This document shows, in pieces, positions 1,163 through 64,000 of a DNA stretch of 64,000 nucleotides. Position numbers and translations under genes: made by a program. The stretch is from positions 1,798,001 to 1,862,000 of the forward strand of contig NZ_CABPSK010000001.1 in the NCBI RefSeq assembly GCF_902459645.1, written 5' to 3'. The notes under the pieces are model-generated. The model searched no databases, was not told where the DNA came from, and saw only the letters and a list, made by a program, of their open reading frames with translations. How positions within the stretch are numbered: the stretch's first letter is position 1; every line of letters starts with the position of its first letter. This DNA comes from Pandoraea pneumonica (lineage in GTDB: Bacteria > Pseudomonadota > Gammaproteobacteria > Burkholderiales > Burkholderiaceae).

Positions 1163-3220
1163 CTAGCGCGCTGGTAAGTGCCCGCCCGCCGCATGGTTCG
1201 ATGCGAGGCGTGACGGCGGAACGCCGCGCGCGTCGCGTTGTAATTGATCGAAACTGACGATGTAGCCGGCCAGCGCGCTCGCCGCCACGGTCGCGGGACT
1301 GCCGAGCCACATCTGCCCCGGGCCGGAACGCCCCGGGAAATTCCGGTTCTGCGCGCTAATCACCACATCGCTCGCGCAACTCGACGCGCCCGGCCCTGCG
1401 TTCACGCAGGCACCGCACCCCGGCGCCAGCAGCGTGACACCTGCCGCTTCGAACACGCGGGTGTAGCCCTGCGACTCGCACCACGCACGCACGTCCTCGC
1501 TGCCGTACTGCAAGTAGAAGCGCACGCCATCGGCCACATGCATGCCGCGCGAGAGCCCCCACGCGAGCACGTCGTGACAAGCCCGCAGGTCGTCGCGTTT
1601 GCTGCCCGTGCAAGAGCCCCCGTAAGCAATGTCGATGCGCACAGGCGCAGCCAACGAGGCGAGCGCCACGCCATTGCCCGGGTCTCCGGGGCTCGCCACC
1701 ATCGCGCCAACGCGCGTGCAGTCGATCTCGATCACATGGGCATACGACGCCTGGGCATCGTTCGTCATCCAAGGCTCCAGCGTCATTTGCACGCCACGAC
1801 GCTCTTGTAAATAGCGCACGGTTTCGGCATCGGGCACCACAATGCCGGTCAGGCCGCCGATCTCGGCCACCATGTTGGTCAGTGTGGCGCGCTCGTCGGT
1901 CGACAGATGCGCCACCGCTTCACCGGCGAATTCGATGATTTGACCGATGGCACGGCCGTCGCGAATGTAGGGCAGATGCAAAACGTGTAGTGCGAGGTCC
2001 TTTGCACTCACGCCTGCCGGTAATTTCGCGCGCAACTGCACGAGGCACGTGCCCGGCATGGCCAGACGTGCATCGCCGGTCAGCCACGCGTTAGCCATCT
2101 CGGTCGCGCCGACGCCGAACGCAAACGCGCCGATCGCACCGCAGTGCGGGGTGTGCGAATCGGTGCCGACGACGACTTGTCCCGGTAGTGCATAGCGTTC
2201 GAGCATGACCGCATGGCAGATGCCTTCCGAGCCGCCGCCCGGAATGCGACCGTGCAAACGCAATCCGTGACGGGCGCAGAACTCACGCTGCACCGCGCCG
2301 AGCTGATGCGCGGCCTCGATCAACGCGGGCGGACGGCCGCTGCCGGTTGTGGCATCGAGATGCGTCAAATGATCTTCAAAGCAGAGAATCGACGCCGGGT
2401 CGTGCAATGGCGGCATGGCGTCGGCCACATCATTCGTGTCACCCGCTGTTTCGCCCACCGTGTCGAACGCGTGATGCAGAAAACTCACCGCCATCGGCGT
2501 GACGTATTCGTGGGAAAAGCGCCAGTCGGCTGGCACGAACACGGCGTCGCCCGCCCGTACGCGGGGCACGCCAAGCGCACGCGCGATGATCTTCTCGCCA
2601 TAAGTCATCGGGCCGGGTGCATGCGCGGGACGCGGCGGCACCACTTCCGCTGCCAGCCTACGGCGCGTGTAACCGAACAACCCGCCGCTGCGCACGATGG
2701 CTTCGCCAAGCGAATCGCAGTCTTCCAGGAATGCTTCGACCGGAACATCCTCGCCTGCGAGCAGACGCTCGACCACATGTTGATCGGTCGACATCAGCAG
2801 GCCGAGGTTCTGGCAGTTCTGCGCGTAGATCCGTTCGAAACTATCGGCCACGACGATGCGGATGCCCGCGCACCATTCGGCAAACGGGCTCGCCTCGCGC
2901 GACGACCCCTTGCCCCGCCGCATGCCCGATACCGACAACGCGAAGCCGCCCGAGCGCACCGCTTTCGGCGTGACGGGAAACACGCCCGCCGGATCGCCGT
3001 CGATGGCACTGCATCGCAATCCAACATAAACGTAGTCGCCCAACGTCTCGTCGAACGTGAGGCAAGCCCATGCGGGCGTCATCTCGTCGGTGGATATCTG
3101 ATCGCGCAGTGTGCCTGCGTCGGCGCGCACGAGATTCTCGCCAGCCAGTTGCCGCGTCATGGCCTCGGCGCTGTCGCTCAACCAAAGCACACGTCCGTTC
3201 AGTCGCACAGTGGTTTGCAT
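1163..3220 (-). CDS. Aconitase/isopropylmalate-dehydratase superfamily hydratase, swivel domain first
   Basis: A 685-residue Fe-S hydro-lyase of the aconitase superfamily. The order of domains is unusual: a swivel-like domain comes first (GKGSSREASPFAEWC near residues 105-119) and the three-part catalytic region follows. Cluster ligands are visible as Cys in GGSCTG and the CxxC pair in GCGACVN; GTDSHTPHCG is the typical substrate and cluster loop. Enzymes of this family isomerise hydroxy-acids through dehydration and rehydration. I chose the ATG at 3220 because AGGAG lies 8 bases upstream; an in-frame ATG at 3298 has no such site. Neighbours are a CoA-transferase downstream and a solute-binding protein and LysR regulator upstream, all on the same strand, which points to catabolism of an imported di- or tricarboxylic acid. 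It is neither ordinary AcnA (domain order 1-2-3-swivel) nor AcnB (no HEAT-like domain). Confidence 0.85.
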   Translation of the reverse strand: MQTTVRLNGRVLWLSDSAEAMTRQLAGENLVRADAGTLRDQISTDEMTPAWACLTFDETLGDYVYVGLRCSAIDGDPAGVFPVTPKAVRSGGFALSVSGMRRGKGSSREASPFAEWCAGIRIVVADSFERIYAQNCQNLGLLMSTDQHVVERLLAGEDVPVEAFLEDCDSLGEAIVRSGGLFGYTRRRLAAEVVPPRPAHAPGPMTYGEKIIARALGVPRVRAGDAVFVPADWRFSHEYVTPMAVSFLHHAFDTVGETAGDTNDVADAMPPLHDPASILCFEDHLTHLDATTGSGRPPALIEAAHQLGAVQREFCARHGLRLHGRIPGGGSEGICHAVMLERYALPGQVVVGTDSHTPHCGAIGAFAFGVGATEMANAWLTGDARLAMPGTCLVQLRAKLPAGVSAKDLALHVLHLPYIRDGRAIGQIIEFAGEAVAHLSTDERATLTNMVAEIGGLTGIVVPDAETVRYLQERRGVQMTLEPWMTNDAQASYAHVIEIDCTRVGAMVASPGDPGNGVALASLAAPVRIDIAYGGSCTGSKRDDLRACHDVLAWGLSRGMHVADGVRFYLQYGSEDVRAWCESQGYTRVFEAAGVTLLAPGCGACVNAGPGASSCASDVVISAQNRNFPGRSGPGQMWLGSPATVAASALAGYIVSFDQLQRDARGVPPSRLASNHAAGGHLPAR

Positions 3221-3359
3221 GTGATCGCTCCTGGAATGGTCCCGCATCGGGTCACCCGTTCGGATCGCAAGTTCCGTGCCCAAGTTGGCGCACGGCAACG
3301 TAGCGGCGGCTGAATTTCGAGGGCTTCACGTCTAAACACGCGTTTGTGAGAGGGCTGGT

Positions 3360-4436
3360 TCAGGGGTACTGGCGATTAGCCTGCGTGGCGAAGGTATTCG
3401 TCCACGTGTCGCCCAAACGAATCTGTGCAGGCTTCACCTCCGGCGTGAACGACGCCAGCGCACGCAGCGCCGTGGCCGGGCCATCGGCTGGCATCATGCC
3501 GTCGGGCGAAAACGCTTCACGGCAGTTGGCAAACGCCTTCAGATACAGCGTCTTGTCGCCCAGCAAATACGGTTCCGGCACCGTCTTGAGCAGTTCGGCG
3601 GCGGAGGCGTGTTGCAGCCACTTGTCGGCGCGCACGATCGCATTGGCGAGTGCCTGCACAGTACGCGGGTTCTTCTGAATAAAGCTCTGCGGCGCGTACA
3701 TCACCGCCGCTGGCATGGGGCCGCCGAACATGGCGCGCGTGCCTGCTTGCGTGCGCGTATCGATAAGCACCTTGATGTCGCCCGACTCCTGAAGCAGCGT
3801 CATCATCGGGTCGACGTTGGACACCGCGTCGACCTGCCCGCCGCGCGCAGCCGCCACCACCGTGGCGTTGGTGCCGACCCCGACGATCGAGACATCCGAC
3901 GGTTTGAGACCCGCTTTCGCGAGGGCCACGTTCACCAGCATGTGGGTGCTGGAACCGGGCGCACTCACGCCGATACGCATGCCTTTCAAGTCCTTGACCG
4001 CCTTCACGTCGTTGCTATGACTCTTCACCACGCCGAGCACTAGCTGCGGCGCGGCACCAAGGACAACGAACGATTGGTACGTCAGCCCTTTGGTTTGCAT
4101 CAACAACGTGTGTTCGAACGCGCCGGTGCCGATATCGGCACTGCCACCGACCACGGCTTGCAGCGCTTTCGAGCCGCCCGCGAAGTCGTCGATGGTGACG
4201 TCTAGCCCTTCGTCCTTGAAGTAGCCGAGTTGTTCGGCAATGGTCAGCGGCAAGTAATACAGCCCGGGCTTGCCGCCCACGGCGATGGTGATTTTGGGTT
4301 TTTCCAGCGGCTGGGCAGGGGCGGCGCGGGCCGGGCCACTTAGGCTCAAGGCCACAAAACCGAGCGCCATCAGCGCAAGTACGAGGATCAGACGGCCCAA
4401 TACATCGCGCACGCGGCGCGCTTCACTCTGTGTCAT
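3360..4436 (-). CDS. NMT1/TauA-type ABC transporter substrate-binding protein
   Basis: A 358-residue secreted protein. Residues 1 to about 38 have a charged start, a long hydrophobic core and an Ala-rich cleavage site (GPARAAPAQ). The mature part starts KITIAVGG and then follows the NMT1/SsuA/TauA layout: GYFKDEGLDVTIDDF, a GGSADIGTGAFE segment, and MRIGVSAPGSSTH in the second lobe. These periplasmic proteins feed small organic acids, sulfonates or pyrimidines to an ABC importer. GGAGGA lies 9 bases before the ATG. No permease or ATPase gene is next to it inside the window; partners may lie beyond position 1 or elsewhere. It sits between a LysR gene and the hydratase gene on the same strand, so it probably captures the substrate of that pathway. 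Confidence 0.88.
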   Translation of the reverse strand: MTQSEARRVRDVLGRLILVLALMALGFVALSLSGPARAAPAQPLEKPKITIAVGGKPGLYYLPLTIAEQLGYFKDEGLDVTIDDFAGGSKALQAVVGGSADIGTGAFEHTLLMQTKGLTYQSFVVLGAAPQLVLGVVKSHSNDVKAVKDLKGMRIGVSAPGSSTHMLVNVALAKAGLKPSDVSIVGVGTNATVVAAARGGQVDAVSNVDPMMTLLQESGDIKVLIDTRTQAGTRAMFGGPMPAAVMYAPQSFIQKNPRTVQALANAIVRADKWLQHASAAELLKTVPEPYLLGDKTLYLKAFANCREAFSPDGMMPADGPATALRALASFTPEVKPAQIRLGDTWTNTFATQANRQYP

Positions 4437-4569: not shown

Positions 4570-5490
4570 TCACGATGCTTCGTTGTTCCCGCGCGCGCAC
4601 AAATGGTCCACCAGCATGCGCGACGCCACTGGTAGCGCGTCGTAACGCCGCACACAAACGATGAGCCGCCGCTGCGCCCAACTGTCGGTCAGCGGCACGA
4701 CGCGCAGCGCCTCGCCGTCGGTCACCTGCGAGTAGATACCCACGGCTTCGCGCGGCGCCACGGCCAAACCGAGATTGGCGCGCACCATGCGGCACACGGC
4801 TTCGAAGGTTGAAACGTGAATGCGGAATTTGACCGTCTTGCCCTGCTCGGCGGCGAGGCGGCGCAACACGGTGTACATGGCGCTGTCGGGATGCACGCCG
4901 ATATGGTCGAAATCGAGCGTGTCGGTGAAGGCCAATTCGGTGGCACCGGCGAGACAGTGTTCGCGGTGCAGCACCGCCACGATCTGATCGTGACGATAGG
5001 GGAAGACTTCGACGTCGCGGGTGTCCACCGCGTCCCAGCAGATGCCGATATCGGTCGCCCCTTCGGCCACCCCGCGCACCACTTGCGCACTGGTGTGTTC
5101 TTCGAGATCGACCTTCACGCCTTCGTGGCGGCGCAGGAACGCGCCAAGTTCGTCGGGCAGGGTTTCGACGATCGACGACACGTTGGCAAAAATGCGGATG
5201 TGGCCGCGCACACCACTCGTGTATTCCGAGAGGTCGCCCTGCATCTTCTCTAGACTGCGCAGGACGTTGCGGGCGTGATGGAGCAGCGCTTCACCGGCCG
5301 GGGTGGCGCGCACGCCCCACTTATGGCGTTGCAGCAGCGCGGAGCCCACCAGCGACTCGAGGTCGTTGATACGCTTGCTGACTGCCGACGGGGCAATGAA
5401 TTCGCGCTCTGCGGCGCGCGCAATGCTGCTTTCCTCGCAAACGGCAACGAACAGACGCAGCGATACCAGATCGATCCGCCAAAGCGCCAT
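4570..5490 (-). CDS. LysR-family transcriptional regulator
   Basis: A 306-residue LysR-type regulator. The N-terminal 60 residues form the winged helix-turn-helix (LRLFVAVCEESSIARAAEREF, then PSAVSKRINDLE), followed by a linker helix and a type 2 periplasmic-binding-like effector domain. The start was set at the ATG at 5490, which has GGGAG upstream and places LWRIDLVSLRLF at the very N-terminus as usual; the frame stays open to 5583 but that extension looks non-coding. The gene lies upstream of, and on the same strand as, the binding protein, hydratase and CoA-transferase genes. It is probably their regulator, although the commoner LysR layout is divergent. The 133 bases between it and the next gene leave room for a separate promoter. 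Confidence 0.92.
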   Translation of the reverse strand: MALWRIDLVSLRLFVAVCEESSIARAAEREFIAPSAVSKRINDLESLVGSALLQRHKWGVRATPAGEALLHHARNVLRSLEKMQGDLSEYTSGVRGHIRIFANVSSIVETLPDELGAFLRRHEGVKVDLEEHTSAQVVRGVAEGATDIGICWDAVDTRDVEVFPYRHDQIVAVLHREHCLAGATELAFTDTLDFDHIGVHPDSAMYTVLRRLAAEQGKTVKFRIHVSTFEAVCRMVRANLGLAVAPREAVGIYSQVTDGEALRVVPLTDSWAQRRLIVCVRRYDALPVASRMLVDHLCARGNNEAS

Positions 5491-58847: not shown

Positions 58848-60866
58848 TTACGGCGCTACTCGAATGCCGCCGTTCATGCCGCGTTTTGATGCCGGGACGA
58901 CCAGCGCTTTATAGGCAACATCGACTGGGTCGACACGCTGCACCGCCGCTAGCATGCACTGCGGAAGATCATCGCCCGACTGGCACCGATTGAGCTCCTC
59001 GAACAAGGCTTCACTGAAATCGCTCCAAACCATCGCCGATGCCACGTCCTTAATTCGCTTCTGCAAAGGACCGGCGGCAATGGTTTCGGCCCAGTCTCGC
59101 AGCACTTCCAGACGAATCGCGATCGCGCAGATCACAGATTTTCCTGGGGAGTACGACGGTTCGATTTCATCCAGCGTGCGCTCGAACCCAACGCGCCGCT
59201 GCCCTGTCGTCGTATTTAACGGATCCGCCTTGGCCTGCAACAGATTCGTCGCAATGCGGCAAGCCCGTGCGGCGATCTCTTTCGCCCGAGCCGATTCGGG
59301 ATCAAATGACGATTCGAGGGTTTGCACAATCTCGTCCCGCGTCGGCGTGTTGTCCCAAACAGCGGCAAGAGGTTCACACCAAGCCGAAATCCATTCGTGC
59401 GTCTCGCGCTGCTCCGTCGAAAGCTGCCCTTTGACCAGATGGCCAAAGCGGTCGTCAGGCGGCAGGGATGACTTGCGTAACGGTGGTGCCGGGGGTGTCT
59501 TGCGTCGCGGCGATGGCGGCTCGGCCAAACGCTCGTCGGAACCGATGCTGGAACTGCTTTCACCGCCGTCTGGATGCTCCATCTCAAAGCCGTATTCCAC
59601 CTTATGCACTTGGGTCTGACTTTTGCCGAACGACGTCATGTCGTATCGGTCTGCCTCGGGCAGGTCGTTGCCGTCGGTACTCCAACGTCGCACACGGAGG
59701 TCATTCGCCAGCAACTCTGGTGTCGATTGACGCCTTTCCGGCCACGCCCCAAAAGCTGCAACCGCTTCGTCTTCGAACTGCTCGTCATCGGGCAGCAGGC
59801 GTACCGGGTCGGGCACGTCGTGCCGGTCGTACCTATCGTCAAGGGCTTTCAACAGCGATTCCGCCTCATCCTTCTGGCGCATGAGGTCGCGTGCGCGTGC
59901 CAGCACCCATTGCTTGCCATGACCATCGCCTTCATACGCCGACGCATCGACACTAAGGAAACTGTTGCCCGGACAACCGAAGCCTCGCTCGCGTAACGTG
60001 TCCAATGTGACGGTGGCAGATGCCGGCAGGCCGAGCAACAACGCGAGACTGGCAGCCTCACTCCGCGCTCGCCGTTGCTTGCTATCCAATACGGAGTGCG
60101 TCGTTGCGGGCTTAAGCACGTACTGATCGCCCCGGCGCGCCAATCGCAACGGCACCGACGCCCCGCCTTTTAGGCGCTCTCGTTGCGCAACGGACGTCAA
60201 CTCGTTGAGCACCTTGACCTCGGCGAGCTCGCGATCGAGCATGGCCAGCCGGTTGCCTAACGAGATATGTGTCGTTTTGCGTGTCGCATCGCAAAGCTTG
60301 GTCAAATGTTGCCGAATTCGCTCGCCCTCGCCCCGGCTTTCGGCATCCCCGGCTTGTGTCCCCCGCGCATCGGCGGCGCTCGCCGCCTGGCGCAATGCAC
60401 CGATGGCATCTAACTGAACGCGATACGCGCCCATGCCGAACCCGCGCAAATGCGTCGTGTTGGCAGGCTTGTTTTTGCTCGCGTCGAGCAGCGTGTTACG
60501 GCGTTCGGCTTCAAACATCCGTACCCCGCTCTCGAAACGTATGACGCTATCGCGCCATGCACCGACTGCGTCGCGGACCGTGTTCGATACGAACGCATCG
60601 GCTTTGACGTCCTCCGCAGCCTTGCATTGCGCGCTGCTCGCTTTTGCCCACTCGCAAAACGGAACGCAAACGTTACCTTGCGGCGTGCGATACGTTCGCT
60701 CCGGGTACCGGGACCACGCCTTGCCCAGCGCCTTCGACGGCAGTTGAACGACGGCACTGAAGTCTCCGGCCAACGAATCGCAATCGTCGAACGGGCGTTG
60801 CACATGCCGCAACAAGACGGGGGTCGATGCGCTGGGCTGCCCGGCACGCGATAAGCGTTCACTCAT
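58848..60866 (-). CDS. Protein of unknown family with effector-like features
   Basis: A 672-residue soluble protein with no signal peptide or membrane helix; I do not recognise its family. AAGGAG lies 8 bases before the ATG. The N-terminus is polar and Ser-rich. Residues about 235-285 (PLRLARRGDQYVLKP, then RSEAASLALLLGLP) vaguely recall the Lys/Glu pair of the N-lobe of atypical kinases such as HipA, but no clear catalytic loop follows. Near 449-471 is a Pro-rich stretch with PxxPxR and KxxPxxP patterns, the form bound by eukaryotic SH3 domains, next to an acidic Ser-rich patch. The C-terminal 190 residues look helical. The gene stands alone. A host-directed effector is possible; I see no secretion gene nearby and no hrpII box. 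Confidence 0.6.
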   Translation of the reverse strand: MSERLSRAGQPSASTPVLLRHVQRPFDDCDSLAGDFSAVVQLPSKALGKAWSRYPERTYRTPQGNVCVPFCEWAKASSAQCKAAEDVKADAFVSNTVRDAVGAWRDSVIRFESGVRMFEAERRNTLLDASKNKPANTTHLRGFGMGAYRVQLDAIGALRQAASAADARGTQAGDAESRGEGERIRQHLTKLCDATRKTTHISLGNRLAMLDRELAEVKVLNELTSVAQRERLKGGASVPLRLARRGDQYVLKPATTHSVLDSKQRRARSEAASLALLLGLPASATVTLDTLRERGFGCPGNSFLSVDASAYEGDGHGKQWVLARARDLMRQKDEAESLLKALDDRYDRHDVPDPVRLLPDDEQFEDEAVAAFGAWPERRQSTPELLANDLRVRRWSTDGNDLPEADRYDMTSFGKSQTQVHKVEYGFEMEHPDGGESSSSIGSDERLAEPPSPRRKTPPAPPLRKSSLPPDDRFGHLVKGQLSTEQRETHEWISAWCEPLAAVWDNTPTRDEIVQTLESSFDPESARAKEIAARACRIATNLLQAKADPLNTTTGQRRVGFERTLDEIEPSYSPGKSVICAIAIRLEVLRDWAETIAAGPLQKRIKDVASAMVWSDFSEALFEELNRCQSGDDLPQCMLAAVQRVDPVDVAYKALVVPASKRGMNGGIRVAP

Positions 60867-61038: not shown

Positions 61039-62097
61039 TCAGAACCGGGCGAGCAACTGACTCAGCAGCGCCGCCCCTTCTTTGCCTTTGGCGGAATCGG
61101 CCCAAAGCCGGTCGATCATCGCGCGGTACATGCCCACGCCGTCGGGCGACGTGGTGATCGTGGCAATCCCGGTGCGCAGGTTCGGCAACTCACCGAGCCG
61201 GAACGGCGATACCGCGACGTACGCCTCGCCCTCCGCTTCGAAGATCTGAAACGACTCGTTGGGCATGTTGTCGCTCACGATGCCGATCTGCACGCCCGAC
61301 GTATCCGCTTCGAGAAACTCGATGATGCGCATCACTTCGCGGCGCGCCGCCATCTTGCGCTCCAGTTGCACGCCCGGTGGCAAGCCCAGCCGCCCAACCA
61401 GCCCGTGATGCAGAAACTGCTCGATCTGACGCAGCCCGATCAGGCTCGTGACTGCCAGACGATGCCGCGAAAAACTCGCTTTACGCTCTTGCAGAATGCC
61501 CAGCACCCGGTCGATCGTCGTGGCCCAGTGCTTGTCGGCGAGTCGCGGCGGAATGCTCTCTTCGAGCATATGACGCAACCACACGTCGTAATCGCTCGAC
61601 GTCAGCAAAAAGGAAATCGGGTCGAAATGCGCGACGATGCGCTCGGAACGGCCCTCCAACTGACGCATGCGCTCGAAGTAGCTCACCGCCGAGTCGTGAT
61701 ATTCCACTTCCACACCCAGCAGGTTTGCCAGCGACACCCCTAACAACGCCGCCAGCCGCTCCAGTGTGTCGATCTTCACGATCTCGCCGCGTTCGAGCTT
61801 GTAGATGGCCGCGCGCGAAATGTCGAGCCGCTCGGCAACGTCCTCACTGCGCAGTTCGGCCGCCAGCCGGTAGGCGCGCAGGCGTTCGCCAATCGCTCGA
61901 AAATTGAAGCGCGCGCCTCTTGGCGCCCGGGATGTCGTCGCAGATCGGTTCAAATCTCCCCCTGTTGGAATTCGTCGCTGCCGCACGCGCGCTCGCGCCC
62001 CGCGACATCGTGCCGGGATTATACCGACGCCCTCCGCCCGCGCACTCTCCCCGCCCGACTTCCCGCACTCATCGTCTCTCGCCATCTCACGCCACAT
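61039..62097 (-). CDS. XRE-type helix-turn-helix regulator with a large C-terminal domain
   Basis: Up to 352 residues. A Cro/C1-type helix-turn-helix lies at about 70-125 (AIGERLRAYRLAAELRSEDVAERL, then SRAAIYKLERGEIVKIDTLERLAALLGV). A large C-terminal domain of about 220 residues follows, of a kind I do not recognise. The N-terminal 60 residues are polar, Arg-rich and probably not translated. An in-frame TTG at 61953 with AGGGGG four bases upstream would give 304 residues, and a TATAAT at 62018-62023 on the minus strand fits that start. A GTCTA-N6-TAGAC palindrome lies 14 bases upstream of the first ATG, and two more lie near 63.5 and 63.85 kb, so this is the likely protein that binds them, possibly controlling itself. 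It is divergent from the porin gene. Confidence 0.85.
   Translation of the reverse strand: MWREMARDDECGKSGGESARAEGVGIIPARCRGARARVRQRRIPTGGDLNRSATTSRAPRGARFNFRAIGERLRAYRLAAELRSEDVAERLDISRAAIYKLERGEIVKIDTLERLAALLGVSLANLLGVEVEYHDSAVSYFERMRQLEGRSERIVAHFDPISFLLTSSDYDVWLRHMLEESIPPRLADKHWATTIDRVLGILQERKASFSRHRLAVTSLIGLRQIEQFLHHGLVGRLGLPPGVQLERKMAARREVMRIIEFLEADTSGVQIGIVSDNMPNESFQIFEAEGEAYVAVSPFRLGELPNLRTGIATITTSPDGVGMYRAMIDRLWADSAKGKEGAALLSQLLARF
62018..62023 (-). promoter_or_regulatory. Possible -10 box inside the longest reading of the XRE-type gene
   Basis: A perfect TATAAT on the minus strand, preceded by GG but with a poor -35. If used, translation would start downstream, for example at TTG 61953. 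Confidence 0.35.
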
Positions 62098-62110: not shown

Positions 62111-62126
62111 GTCTATTTTTTTAGAC
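62111..62126. promoter_or_regulatory. Operator copy 1, form GTCTA-N6-TAGAC
   Basis: GTCTATTTTTTTAGAC. The outer arms equal those of the two copies at 63468 and 63847. It lies between the XRE-type regulator and the porin gene, so it may serve either or both. Confidence 0.65.
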
Positions 62127-62269
62127 ATCGGCACGATGCCGTGCAGGTCTGCCCCACACCACGGGAATGGCCGGAACAAATTGATGTTCAGCGCAATTTT
62201 GGGGATGACCGGGCACGCGGGCAGTGATAGCCTGCGCGCCGTCCAGAAATTTGTACACATAACGAGGGA

Positions 62270-63325
62270 ATGATGAAAACCTGGCACAAGGTGGCTGGCG
62301 CCGCCGCATTGGGCGCGGCAACGCTCGCAACGACGGCCCATGCGCAGTCGAGCGTGAGCTTCTACGGTTTGGCCGACGCCTATGTCGGCTCGGTGAAGAA
62401 CCCGGGCGGGCAAGCCGCGGTCGTGCAGCAAGGCGGCGGCATGACCACGTCGTATTGGGGCATGGCCGGTACGGAAGATCTGGGCGGCGGCAACAGCGCG
62501 CTCTTCGTGCTCGAGAGCTATTTCCAGCCGAACAACGGCACCTACGGCCGTTTTGCTGGCGACAGCTTCTTCTCGCGCAACGCCTACGTCGGCCTGTCGA
62601 ACACCACCGCCGGTACGCTGCGGCTCGGACGCATCACCACGCCGCTGTATCTGGCGACGATCCAGTTCAACCCGTTCAACAACTCGTACACGTTCTCGCC
62701 GATGATCTTCCACACCTACAAGGGTCTGGGGACGCAAGGCGTGGTGGGCGACTCGGCATGGAACAACGCCATCGCGTACACGTCGCCGAGTTATGCAGGC
62801 TTGGCCGGCACGCTGATCTACGCCACGGGTAACAGCGCAACGGACCACAGCGCCAAGAAGTGGGGCGCCGCCCTCACGTATGGCAACGGCCCGTTCGGCG
62901 TGGCGGTGAACTATCAATACGTGAACTTCAGCAACACCGCGGGAGACTTCGGTACGCAGTTGCCTGGCGTGACGGGGCTTGCCAACCAGAACACGGCACA
63001 GATCGGCCTCTCGTACGACTTCACCGTCGTGAAGCTGTTTGCGCAGTACATGCTCGTCGCCAGTCAGGCGGCCAGTGGCAATTTCCACAGCAACACGGGG
63101 CAGTTCGGCGCCTCGGTGCCGCTCGGTCGCGGCAGCGTGCTCGCGTCGGTCGCCTACACCGGCTCGAACGGCTCGGGCGACAACCAGCGCCGCACCACGT
63201 GGGCACTCGGCTACGACTACCCGCTCTCCAAGCGCACCGACATTTACGCCGCCTACAAGTACGATCACATGAGCGACTTGTCGACCGGCCAGACGTACGG
63301 CGCCGGCCTGCGAATGAAGTTCTAA
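62270..63325 (+). CDS. Gram-negative trimeric porin (Burkholderiales type)
   Basis: A 351-residue outer-membrane porin. The signal peptide ends at TTAHA before QSSVSFYGLADAYV, the classic first strand. Then comes YWGMAGTEDLGGGNSALFVLE, the first-turn motif of this family, and the C-terminal strand ends in Phe (GAGLRMKF), which is needed for BAM-dependent insertion. The 16-strand barrel lets small solutes cross. Two ATGs are adjacent (62270 and 62273); the second has better spacing from GAGG. Operator copy 1 lies 144 bases upstream, between this gene and the divergent regulator. Confidence 0.95.
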   Translation: MMKTWHKVAGAAALGAATLATTAHAQSSVSFYGLADAYVGSVKNPGGQAAVVQQGGGMTTSYWGMAGTEDLGGGNSALFVLESYFQPNNGTYGRFAGDSFFSRNAYVGLSNTTAGTLRLGRITTPLYLATIQFNPFNNSYTFSPMIFHTYKGLGTQGVVGDSAWNNAIAYTSPSYAGLAGTLIYATGNSATDHSAKKWGAALTYGNGPFGVAVNYQYVNFSNTAGDFGTQLPGVTGLANQNTAQIGLSYDFTVVKLFAQYMLVASQAASGNFHSNTGQFGASVPLGRGSVLASVAYTGSNGSGDNQRRTTWALGYDYPLSKRTDIYAAYKYDHMSDLSTGQTYGAGLRMKF

Positions 63326-63366
63326 GCCTTATCAGACGTTATCGGGTGTGCCCCCGCACACTCGCC

Positions 63367-63406
63367 CTGCGCGACGGTATCCCCCGCTACAACCGCCGTC
63401 GCGCAG
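63367..63406 (+). terminator. Stem-loop downstream of the porin gene
   Basis: CTGCGCGACGG (63367-63377) and CCGTCGCGCAG (63396-63406) are perfect 11-base arms 42 bases after the porin stop. The T-run is poor (TCCTTCG). Confidence 0.55.
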
Positions 63407-63467
63407 TCCTTCGACTCAGGGTTTGACCCAATAATTTTCACCTTGCCGGACCCCTTGGGTTCGTTTA

Positions 63468-63483
63468 GTCTAAATATTTAGAC
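63468..63483. promoter_or_regulatory. Operator copy 2, perfect 16-bp palindrome
   Basis: GTCTAAATATTTAGAC is fully self-complementary and lies 4 bases before the ribosome site of the small gene at 63498. It probably covers the transcription start. Confidence 0.8.
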
Positions 63484-63497
63484 AAATGGAGCGCATG

Positions 63498-63821
63498 ATG
63501 GATCTGAAGCTTGCTTGTGCCTGGTTGCAGCGCGACACGGTTGGTTTGTCCGACATCGAAGACTTCGCCGAGCGCTGCCTGAACGCGTCGCGCACCCCCA
63601 CGCGTGAATCGGCTGCGCTGCTGTTGCTCGCGCAGGCGGCACAGGCTTTTGCAGAAAGGCAGTCCGGCATTGCGACGAGCAGCGAAACGTTGCAGGCGTT
63701 TCTCACCCGCAGCAAAGCCTCCGCCACCATGCTGCGCGAGGCCGCCGACGCGTCCGACGCCCACTTTCTCGCCACCCTCAACGACTTCGCTGCGCAGTTC
63801 ACCAGCGATGTCTATGTGTGA
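63498..63821 (+). CDS. Small helical protein of unknown function under a palindromic operator
   Basis: A 107-residue soluble protein that looks wholly helical and acidic to neutral, with repeated Ala/Leu-rich amphipathic stretches (AALLLLAQAAQAFAE, SSETLQAFLTRSKASATML). I do not recognise a family. The start is set at the second of two adjacent in-frame ATGs near the ribosome site, with GGAG six bases upstream; an ATG at 63486 overlaps that site. Identical 16-base palindromes lie just before (63468) and just after it (63847). The next gene starts 130 bases downstream. Confidence 0.72.
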   Translation: MDLKLACAWLQRDTVGLSDIEDFAERCLNASRTPTRESAALLLLAQAAQAFAERQSGIATSSETLQAFLTRSKASATMLREAADASDAHFLATLNDFAAQFTSDVYV

Positions 63822-63846
63822 GTCGAGGCATTTTTTTCTCGCATTC

Positions 63847-63862
63847 GTCTAAATATTTAGAC
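63847..63862. promoter_or_regulatory. Operator copy 3, identical to copy 2
   Basis: GTCTAAATATTTAGAC, 25 bases after the stop of the small gene and 89 bases before the next start. It lies in a promoter-like A+T-rich patch. Confidence 0.8.
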
Positions 63863-63951: not shown

Positions 63952-64000
63952 ATGGAAGTCAACCTGAACACCCCGAGCGCACAGCGCACGGCTGCCGCAC
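63952..64000 (+). CDS. Start of a coding region cut by the window edge
   Basis: ATG at 63952 with AGGA seven or eight bases upstream opens a frame reading MEVNLNTPSAQRTAAA to the end of the window. It follows operator copy 3 by 89 bases on the plus strand. Sixteen residues are too few to assign a family. Confidence 0.5.
   Translation, partial: MEVNLNTPSAQRTAAA

Follow-up and report, generated by a model that had tools for sequence, protein, structure and literature searches.

Orotate degradation in Clostridium (Zymobacterium) oroticum runs from orotate through dihydroorotate and carbamoyl-aspartate to aspartate. Among regulators, XRE (Cro/C1-type) repressors with a separate sensor, such as ComR, PlcR, and PrgX, carry C-terminal repeat domains, and TrmB-type sugar-sensing regulators bind DNA through a winged-helix domain. 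The class 1B dihydroorotate dehydrogenase of C. oroticum is represented in PMC10395836 by a table entry and the title of a reference. Here, we analyzed a 64,000-nucleotide stretch of the Pandoraea pneumonica genome (assembly GCF_902459645.1, contig NZ_CABPSK010000001.1, positions 1,798,001 to 1,862,000; hereafter the window), in which three copies of a 16-bp palindrome, GTCTA-N6-TAGAC, lie near the gene of an XRE-type regulator. We consider it probable (roughly 70%) that the palindromes are operators of this regulator and that together they control a regulon for pyrimidine-acid catabolism. The sites, their rarity, conservation and linkage, the protein families, the predicted fold, and the promoter overlap were computed.

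The locus shares its predicted catabolic steps with C. oroticum, but it belongs to Proteobacteria and adds a porin, uptake by an MFS transporter, and a dedicated XRE regulator. Its PyrD scored above a family cut-off, like class 1B dihydroorotate dehydrogenases (PyrD/PyrK; PDB 1ep1–1ep3), whereas the operon looks catabolic, with a transporter and a carbamoylase, the PyrK-like subunit is divergent, and the genome also encodes a class 2 PyrD. The regulator resembles ComR, PlcR, and PrgX, which were matched over the helix-turn-helix (HTH), in its N-terminal Cro/C1-type HTH, in its palindromic sites, and in an operator that overlaps a promoter at one of them (site 2). Where these proteins have C-terminal repeat domains, it is predicted to have a PLD-like alpha/beta fold, while its Cro/C1-type DNA-binding domain sets it apart from TrmB. 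A one-component regulator with operators on a catabolic operon is ordinary as a kind. The preliminary description, made from the window alone, had supposed an uncharacterised system, which agrees with our searches: no NCBIfam family was found for the regulator at E ≤ 1e-10 among 57 members, and no description of the regulator, its sites, or the operon was found in the open literature (subscription papers, preprints, and regulon databases lay outside the scope). The regulator family, its sensor fold, its operator, and an orotate-type regulon thus appear to be undescribed in the literature searched.

The three palindromes reported earlier were confirmed in the sequence: GTCTATTTTTTTAGAC at 62111–62126, between the regulator and porin genes (site 1), and GTCTAAATATTTAGAC both at 63468–63483 (site 2) and at 63847–63862, 5' of the transporter operon (site 3); none is assigned a strand. 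They were the only matches in the window when up to one mismatch was allowed in the arms, compared with a mean of 0.28 in 100 dinucleotide shuffles of the window, only one of which reached three, so chance occurrence is unlikely, as had been argued before. In the whole genome (5,845,078 bases), exact GTCTA-N6-TAGAC occurred at four places, three of them at this locus, and when the centre was restricted to A/T and one mismatch was tolerated, the three locus sites alone were found. A+T-rich palindromes do occur in intergenic DNA, and a terminator-like stem at 63447–63463 ends 5 bp before site 2, with its T tail running into the site; the palindromes might therefore have arisen by chance or have no regulatory role, being a dispersed repeat, a hairpin, or a terminator. 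However, three linked copies among four genome-wide do not make a dispersed repeat, the sites are kept between genera near start codons, and site 2 stands at a fixed promoter spacing. In addition, a single terminator-like site was detected at positions 4900–7000 of L005, a stretch of the same contig that runs past the window end (window numbering equals L005 + 57000), where shuffles averaged 2.1. A chance or dispersed-repeat origin was rejected on the shuffles, the genome count, and the genus comparison, and we regard this whole group of explanations as extremely improbable.

Within the genus, 28 of the 32 genomes examined, including that of the window, encoded the full-length regulator, and 25 of these 28 also carried the porin, small gene, MFS, pyrK, pyrD, and carbamoylase genes together with all three sites. 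Across the 25 operon-bearing loci, site 2 was an identical 16-mer, with more variation in the bases around it; the arms of site 3 were exact in 24 and had one change in 1, and those of site 1 were exact in 14 and had one change in 11. A scan that requires an A/T-only centre misses site 3 of L067 (locus L042), which reads GTCTAGAAATTTAGAC. The seven genus genomes without the operon had no full-length PyrK; five of them had no A/T-centred site at 0–1 mismatch, and each of the other two had a single 1-mismatch match on a contig other than the regulator's.

Beyond the genus, a scan of 84,980 named species genomes gave 102 confirmed loci, the best 80 of which (18 Pandoraea and 62 others) were analyzed. 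The others included Burkholderia, Paraburkholderia, Trinickia, Caballeronia, Cupriavidus, and Pigmentiphaga, and the regulator was further borne by Pseudomonas, Bradyrhizobium, Pseudolabrys, Methylobacterium, and other genera. Both pyrK and pyrD had matches no more than 10 kb from the regulator in 15 of the 18 Pandoraea loci and 46 of the 62 others; several loci run into contig ends. Among the 62, at least one of pyrK, pyrD, and dihydroorotase was near the regulator in 51, pyrK and pyrD were joined by a carbamoylase in 37, and all four occurred together in 12 (in L108 by a 32% dihydroorotase match only). Since the regulator was found at E ≤ 1e-25 in 14 of 399 genomes of an order-wide sample (own genome included), its distribution is patchy.

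Keeping the Pandoraea motif as it is but tolerating up to two mismatches over its 16 positions, we counted sites in 350-bp regions 5' of regulon genes in 61 of the 62 non-Pandoraea loci (L100, which ends at its contig end, was left out), using 59 permuted palindromic arms as controls. Motif sites numbered 26 in 10 of 10 Burkholderiaceae loci (permuted-arm mean 0.15, maximum 3), 13 in 7 of 7 Pigmentiphaga-type loci (mean 0.02, maximum 1), and 40 in 10 of 10 Pseudomonas loci (mean 1.14, maximum 32). In Pseudomonas, the high maximum came from GTATC (32), the arm of the variant native to this genus, GTATC-N6-TAGAC; a second control, TGTCA (27), was also high and, judged by eye, picks up the same sites shifted by one base. 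The 31 most distant loci had 3 motif sites in 3 loci (mean 0.25, maximum 9), and the three Cupriavidus-type loci without the operon had none (mean 0.02, maximum 1). A pooled form, GTMTM-N6-KAKAC, gave 60 matches in 42 kb of upstream sequence against 15 in 1.11 Mb elsewhere, and 29 letter permutations of it gave at most 2 upstream matches each, with the consensus picked after the loci had been seen. Rarity, conservation, and linkage thereby lend comparative support to the earlier proposal of a small dedicated regulon, with the adjacent XRE-type protein as its likeliest binder.

Two variations on this arrangement were observed among the relatives. Five Burkholderia/Paraburkholderia loci have an extra site beyond the operon; in L081 (~379–2419) and L083 (~1483–3544), it is flanked by a SLOG-family-like gene and a Rieske oxygenase gene, the families being assigned by profile scan for L083 and by reading for L081. 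In Cupriavidus-type homologs (L093–L095), which have no pyrK or pyrD in the locus, GTCTC-N6-GAGAC is situated between the regulator gene and a TctC-like one.

The regulator gene (61039–61953, minus strand) encodes 304 residues from a probable TTG start with GGGGGAG just 5' of it, a start taken from the sequence and from the point where homology begins. The protein matched Pfam HTH_31 (47.1 bits, cut-off 27) and HTH_3 (43.5, cut-off 23), and both families were matched, counted at E ≤ 1, in all 57 proteins of an alignment that comprised the window protein and homologs from 56 of the 80 scanned loci. Its AlphaFold2 model (mean predicted local distance difference test score, pLDDT, 89.6) and its fold matches predict an XRE HTH, at about residues 16–82, joined to a putative PLD/TrmB-like domain, at about 82–303. 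PLD superfamily enzymes have an HxKxxxxD catalytic motif. No match to a relaxed HKD pattern was seen in 46 of the 57 members, including the window protein; the other 11 had one relaxed match each. Pfam DUF5753 was weakly matched in 15 of the 57 regulators (best E 1.4e-4), which is an unconfirmed lead for the C-terminal domain, and the phage RstR repressor family (NF041951) scored 30.8 bits, under its cut-off of 80.

Site 2 suggests how the protein may act. In 24 of the 25 Pandoraea loci, the operator is preceded by TTG at position −25 and by TA at −2 (TTGnnn-N17-TAGTCT); in the window, this arrangement predicts a core promoter for the small gene (TTGCCG, 17 bp, TAGTCT; 63443–63471, plus strand) with a −10 that overlaps the operator. 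A geometry scan of 93 motif-like places in 63 loci, using an offset picked after the alignment had been seen, found the same −25/−2 arrangement at 18 sites in 16 other loci, including Burkholderia, Paraburkholderia, Trinickia, Caballeronia, and Pigmentiphaga. Because a bound protein would cover the −10 and the likely transcription start, the site-2 arrangement probably means repression. A sigma-70 consensus scan of L005 4900–7000 returned no promoters, the one at site 2 being passed over because TAGTCT is too far from TATAAT.

Alternatively, the sites may be operators of the regulon at which the protein activates transcription or serves as a ligand-dependent switch. This would suit the weak −10 of site 2 and its absence from the consensus scan, and also the position of site 1 upstream of both divergent genes. 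Moreover, the geometry of site 2 was not seen at Pandoraea sites 1 and 3 or at any Pseudomonas site, so repression is less clear at sites 1 and 3. Nevertheless, a fixed TTG-N17-TAGTCT with the operator starting within the −10, kept both in Pandoraea and in the 16 other loci, fits steric repression, and we consider this alternative rather unlikely.

Autoregulation, another earlier proposal, was not supported for Pandoraea. Site 1 lies 158 bp from the likely TTG start of the regulator and about 90 bp from the probable −10 of its own promoter (TATAAT, 62018–62023, minus strand, assigned by reading), and the −10-like sequence ATTATA stands in a like context in three genomes without sites (L062, L063, and L064). 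Site 1 fits better with the neighboring outer-membrane porin gene (62270–63325, plus strand; 351 residues; PF13609 Porin_4, 172.9 bits, cut-off 27). For Pseudomonas, on the other hand, site positions make autoregulation plausible: in all 10 loci a site is close to the extrapolated regulator start, at 57–73 bp 5' of it in 7 and at −6 to 17 bp in 3.

The gene order shows what the sites might control. The regulator is transcribed leftward and is followed rightward by site 1, porin, site 2, small gene, site 3, and the MFS transporter gene (63952–65211, plus strand; 419 residues), which crosses the window end at 64000 and whose remainder was read on the same contig. Beyond the window, on the plus strand and in window numbering, are a PyrK-like gene (65208–66089), a class 1B pyrD (66082–67071), and an N-carbamoyl-amino-acid hydrolase gene (67185–68456); the MFS gene overlaps the PyrK-like gene, which in turn overlaps pyrD, and the carbamoylase gene comes after them. 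The system does continue past 64 kb, as anticipated in the preliminary description, which had listed the genes of the regulator and the small protein and the beginning of another gene, without naming the porin gene at site 1.

The enzyme families point to dihydroorotate chemistry. PyrD exceeded the cut-offs of NF005574 (368.7 bits, cut-off 269) and TIGR01037 (312.3, cut-off 270), the class 1B enzyme 1ep1 is among its nearest relatives of known structure, and its NISCPN segment aligned to NISCPN of the class 1B structures 1ep1 and 5ue9; the Cys of N(I/L)SCPN is an active-site residue of PyrD. The PyrK-like protein contains the Fe-S domain PF10418 (48.6 bits, cut-off 23.9) but fell far short of the PyrK equivalog cut-offs of NCBIfam (best score 123.8, cut-off 314) and is therefore named no more than PyrK-like. 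The carbamoylase was above the cut-off of the hydantoinase/carbamoylase family amidase model TIGR01879 (260.4 bits, cut-off 204) and below that of allantoate deiminase AllC (TIGR03176; 183.3, cut-off 597.75). The genome separately encodes a class 2 PyrD that scored above its cut-off (444 bits), which makes the 1B enzyme dispensable for biosynthesis. In Paraburkholderia phenoliruptrix (L081), the locus also encodes a dihydroorotase (TIGR00856, 437.6 bits, cut-off 293), so the enzyme set from orotate to aspartate is complete there. Taken together, the porin, MFS transporter, PyrK-like protein, PyrD, and carbamoylase, with dihydroorotase in relatives, are probably a set for orotate uptake and breakdown.

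The same regulator and sites could instead serve another substrate, such as a cyclic ureide or a substituted pyrimidine acid (methylated, or a hydantoin), orotate then being no more than an intermediate. In favor of this, the Pandoraea operon contains no dihydroorotase (the single PyrC of the genome is encoded elsewhere), several related models of differing specificity match the carbamoylase below cut-off, and UbiD-like genes, identified by eye, stand beside dihydroorotase in 6 of the 7 loci that have them. The Rieske oxygenase gene with its own upstream site in Burkholderia/Paraburkholderia loci likewise indicates that the substrate may exceed plain orotate. Against these stand a PyrD that lies far under the cut-off of the dihydropyrimidine dehydrogenase PreA (NF006183; 130.2 bits, cut-off 335) while exceeding those for dihydroorotate dehydrogenase, the Paraburkholderia dihydroorotase over its cut-off, and the 12 loci in which all four enzyme matches occur together. 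Thus, a substrate other than orotate is a secondary possibility, to which we assign a low probability.

Further results weigh against an operator-controlled orotate regulon, in addition to the divergent PyrK-like score, the missing dihydroorotase, the oxygenase, the site geometry, and the after-the-fact choice of offset and consensus already given. The earlier expectation that the motif would be rare genome-wide, placed upstream, and present beside orthologous regulators was borne out in the genus and its nearer relatives and less so in the most distant ones: 32 of the 62 loci, all distant, had no upstream GTMTM-N6-KAKAC. The permuted control GTATC, with 9 sites in 6 loci, exceeded the Pandoraea motif among the 31 most distant loci, indicating either a drifted site or a failed association there, and an inverted-repeat search beside the 45% homolog L065 gave no clear operator by eye. 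The pooled motif was also absent from the whole strand scanned in 17 of the 46 pyrK- and pyrD-bearing loci, which do have the regulator. Moreover, three of the 28 regulator-bearing Pandoraea genomes (P. cepalis, P. eparura, and P. terrae; L079, L080, and L082) keep an intact regulator with neither operon nor sites. These orphan regulators are under purifying selection and therefore likely have a further target: in 10 chosen pairs (L056 left out), the ratio of nonsynonymous to synonymous substitution rates (dN/dS) was 0.07 between P. cepalis and P. eparura, 0.12–0.13 between either and P. terrae, and 0.06–0.13 between the orphans and the window regulator, compared with 0.02–0.04 between operon-bearing species. 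The orphans and the 17 loci without a motif are what one would see if another transcription factor bound the palindromes and the XRE gene were a mere neighbor. However, the regulator, operon, and site are linked in several families, and diverged sites go with diverged regulators (GTATC-N6-TAGAC in Pseudomonas, GTCTC-N6-GAGAC in Cupriavidus), which makes another binder improbable.

For the preferred reading, control by the XRE-type protein, we infer binding of the protein to its sites, repression, the inducer, the substrate, and the direction of the enzymes as follows. A dimer of the protein would bind GTCTA-N6-TAGAC; at site 2, it would block RNA polymerase by occupying the −10 region, and sites 1 and 3 would probably keep the porin gene and the transporter operon off in a like manner. 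A small molecule, most likely orotate or one of its breakdown products, for example dihydroorotate or N-carbamoyl-aspartate, would bind the PLD/TrmB-like domain and free the DNA. Upon induction, the compound would enter through the porin and the MFS symporter, and PyrD/PyrK, as an NAD-linked class 1B dihydroorotate dehydrogenase run backwards, would convert orotate to dihydroorotate. The ring would next be opened by dihydroorotase, whose gene is part of the locus in several relatives; here, this step would fall to the single PyrC, encoded at another place in the genome. Finally, the carbamoylase would yield aspartate together with CO2 and ammonia. A bolder version goes further and, in our judgment, falls somewhat short of even odds: an undescribed class of one-component repressors, each an XRE domain with a catalytically dead PLD/TrmB-like sensor of orotate or dihydroorotate, would govern a complete orotate-to-aspartate route in beta-, gamma-, and alphaproteobacteria, the operator would drift with the protein, its half-sites passing from GTCTA to GTATC or GTCTC, and the small helical protein would be a new member of the regulon.

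If true, this would put orotate use by soil bacteria and opportunists, for which the open literature searched yielded no such description, on a genetic footing, together with its regulator, operator, and transporter. It would further give a function to a regulator family without an NCBIfam name, and predict an inducible expression system. The diverged regulator–operator pairs would also form a natural series for how XRE proteins select DNA.

The small gene between sites 2 and 3 (63498–63821, plus strand) encodes an all-helical protein of about 107 residues, with its start placed from homologs and the open reading frame opening at 63486. Its homologs, at 42–83% identity, occur in Pandoraea, Burkholderia, Paraburkholderia, Trinickia, and Caballeronia. 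The window protein had no Pfam family above cut-off, and a family search with the 15 members of an alignment (the window protein and 14 of 24 listed sequences, among which L091 is a fragment) touched 10 families, each in at most 2 of the 15 members and at E 0.0068 or worse. The model of the protein (pLDDT 87.8) gave no match at E ≤ 0.001 in a PDB fold search. In Burkholderiaceae, the small gene stands beside a site of its own even where the gene order is altered (L087, L088, and L090), and on this genomic pattern, the protein is a consistent predicted member of the regulon in that family.

Distant homologs of the regulator in L065, L120, L125, L131, and L134 stand beside pyrK, pyrD, and dihydroorotase-like genes together with UbiD-like and/or TctC-like genes. 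By labels given by eye, these loci represent a differently equipped version of the pathway; TctC, UbiD, and the dihydroorotase used as the L065 query were so named, and the dihydroorotase of L081 alone was checked by family. In the window itself, a 672-residue open reading frame at 58848–60866 on the minus strand matched no Pfam or NCBIfam family. The fourth genomic match to the motif, GTCTAGTCGTATAGAC (L007:4463–4478; G000 C2:942462–942477), lies between phnG and phnF and has a centre that is not A/T-only. An identical copy occurs at single places in many genus genomes among the matches listed, a conservation suggestive of a distinct operator, which may belong to PhnF.

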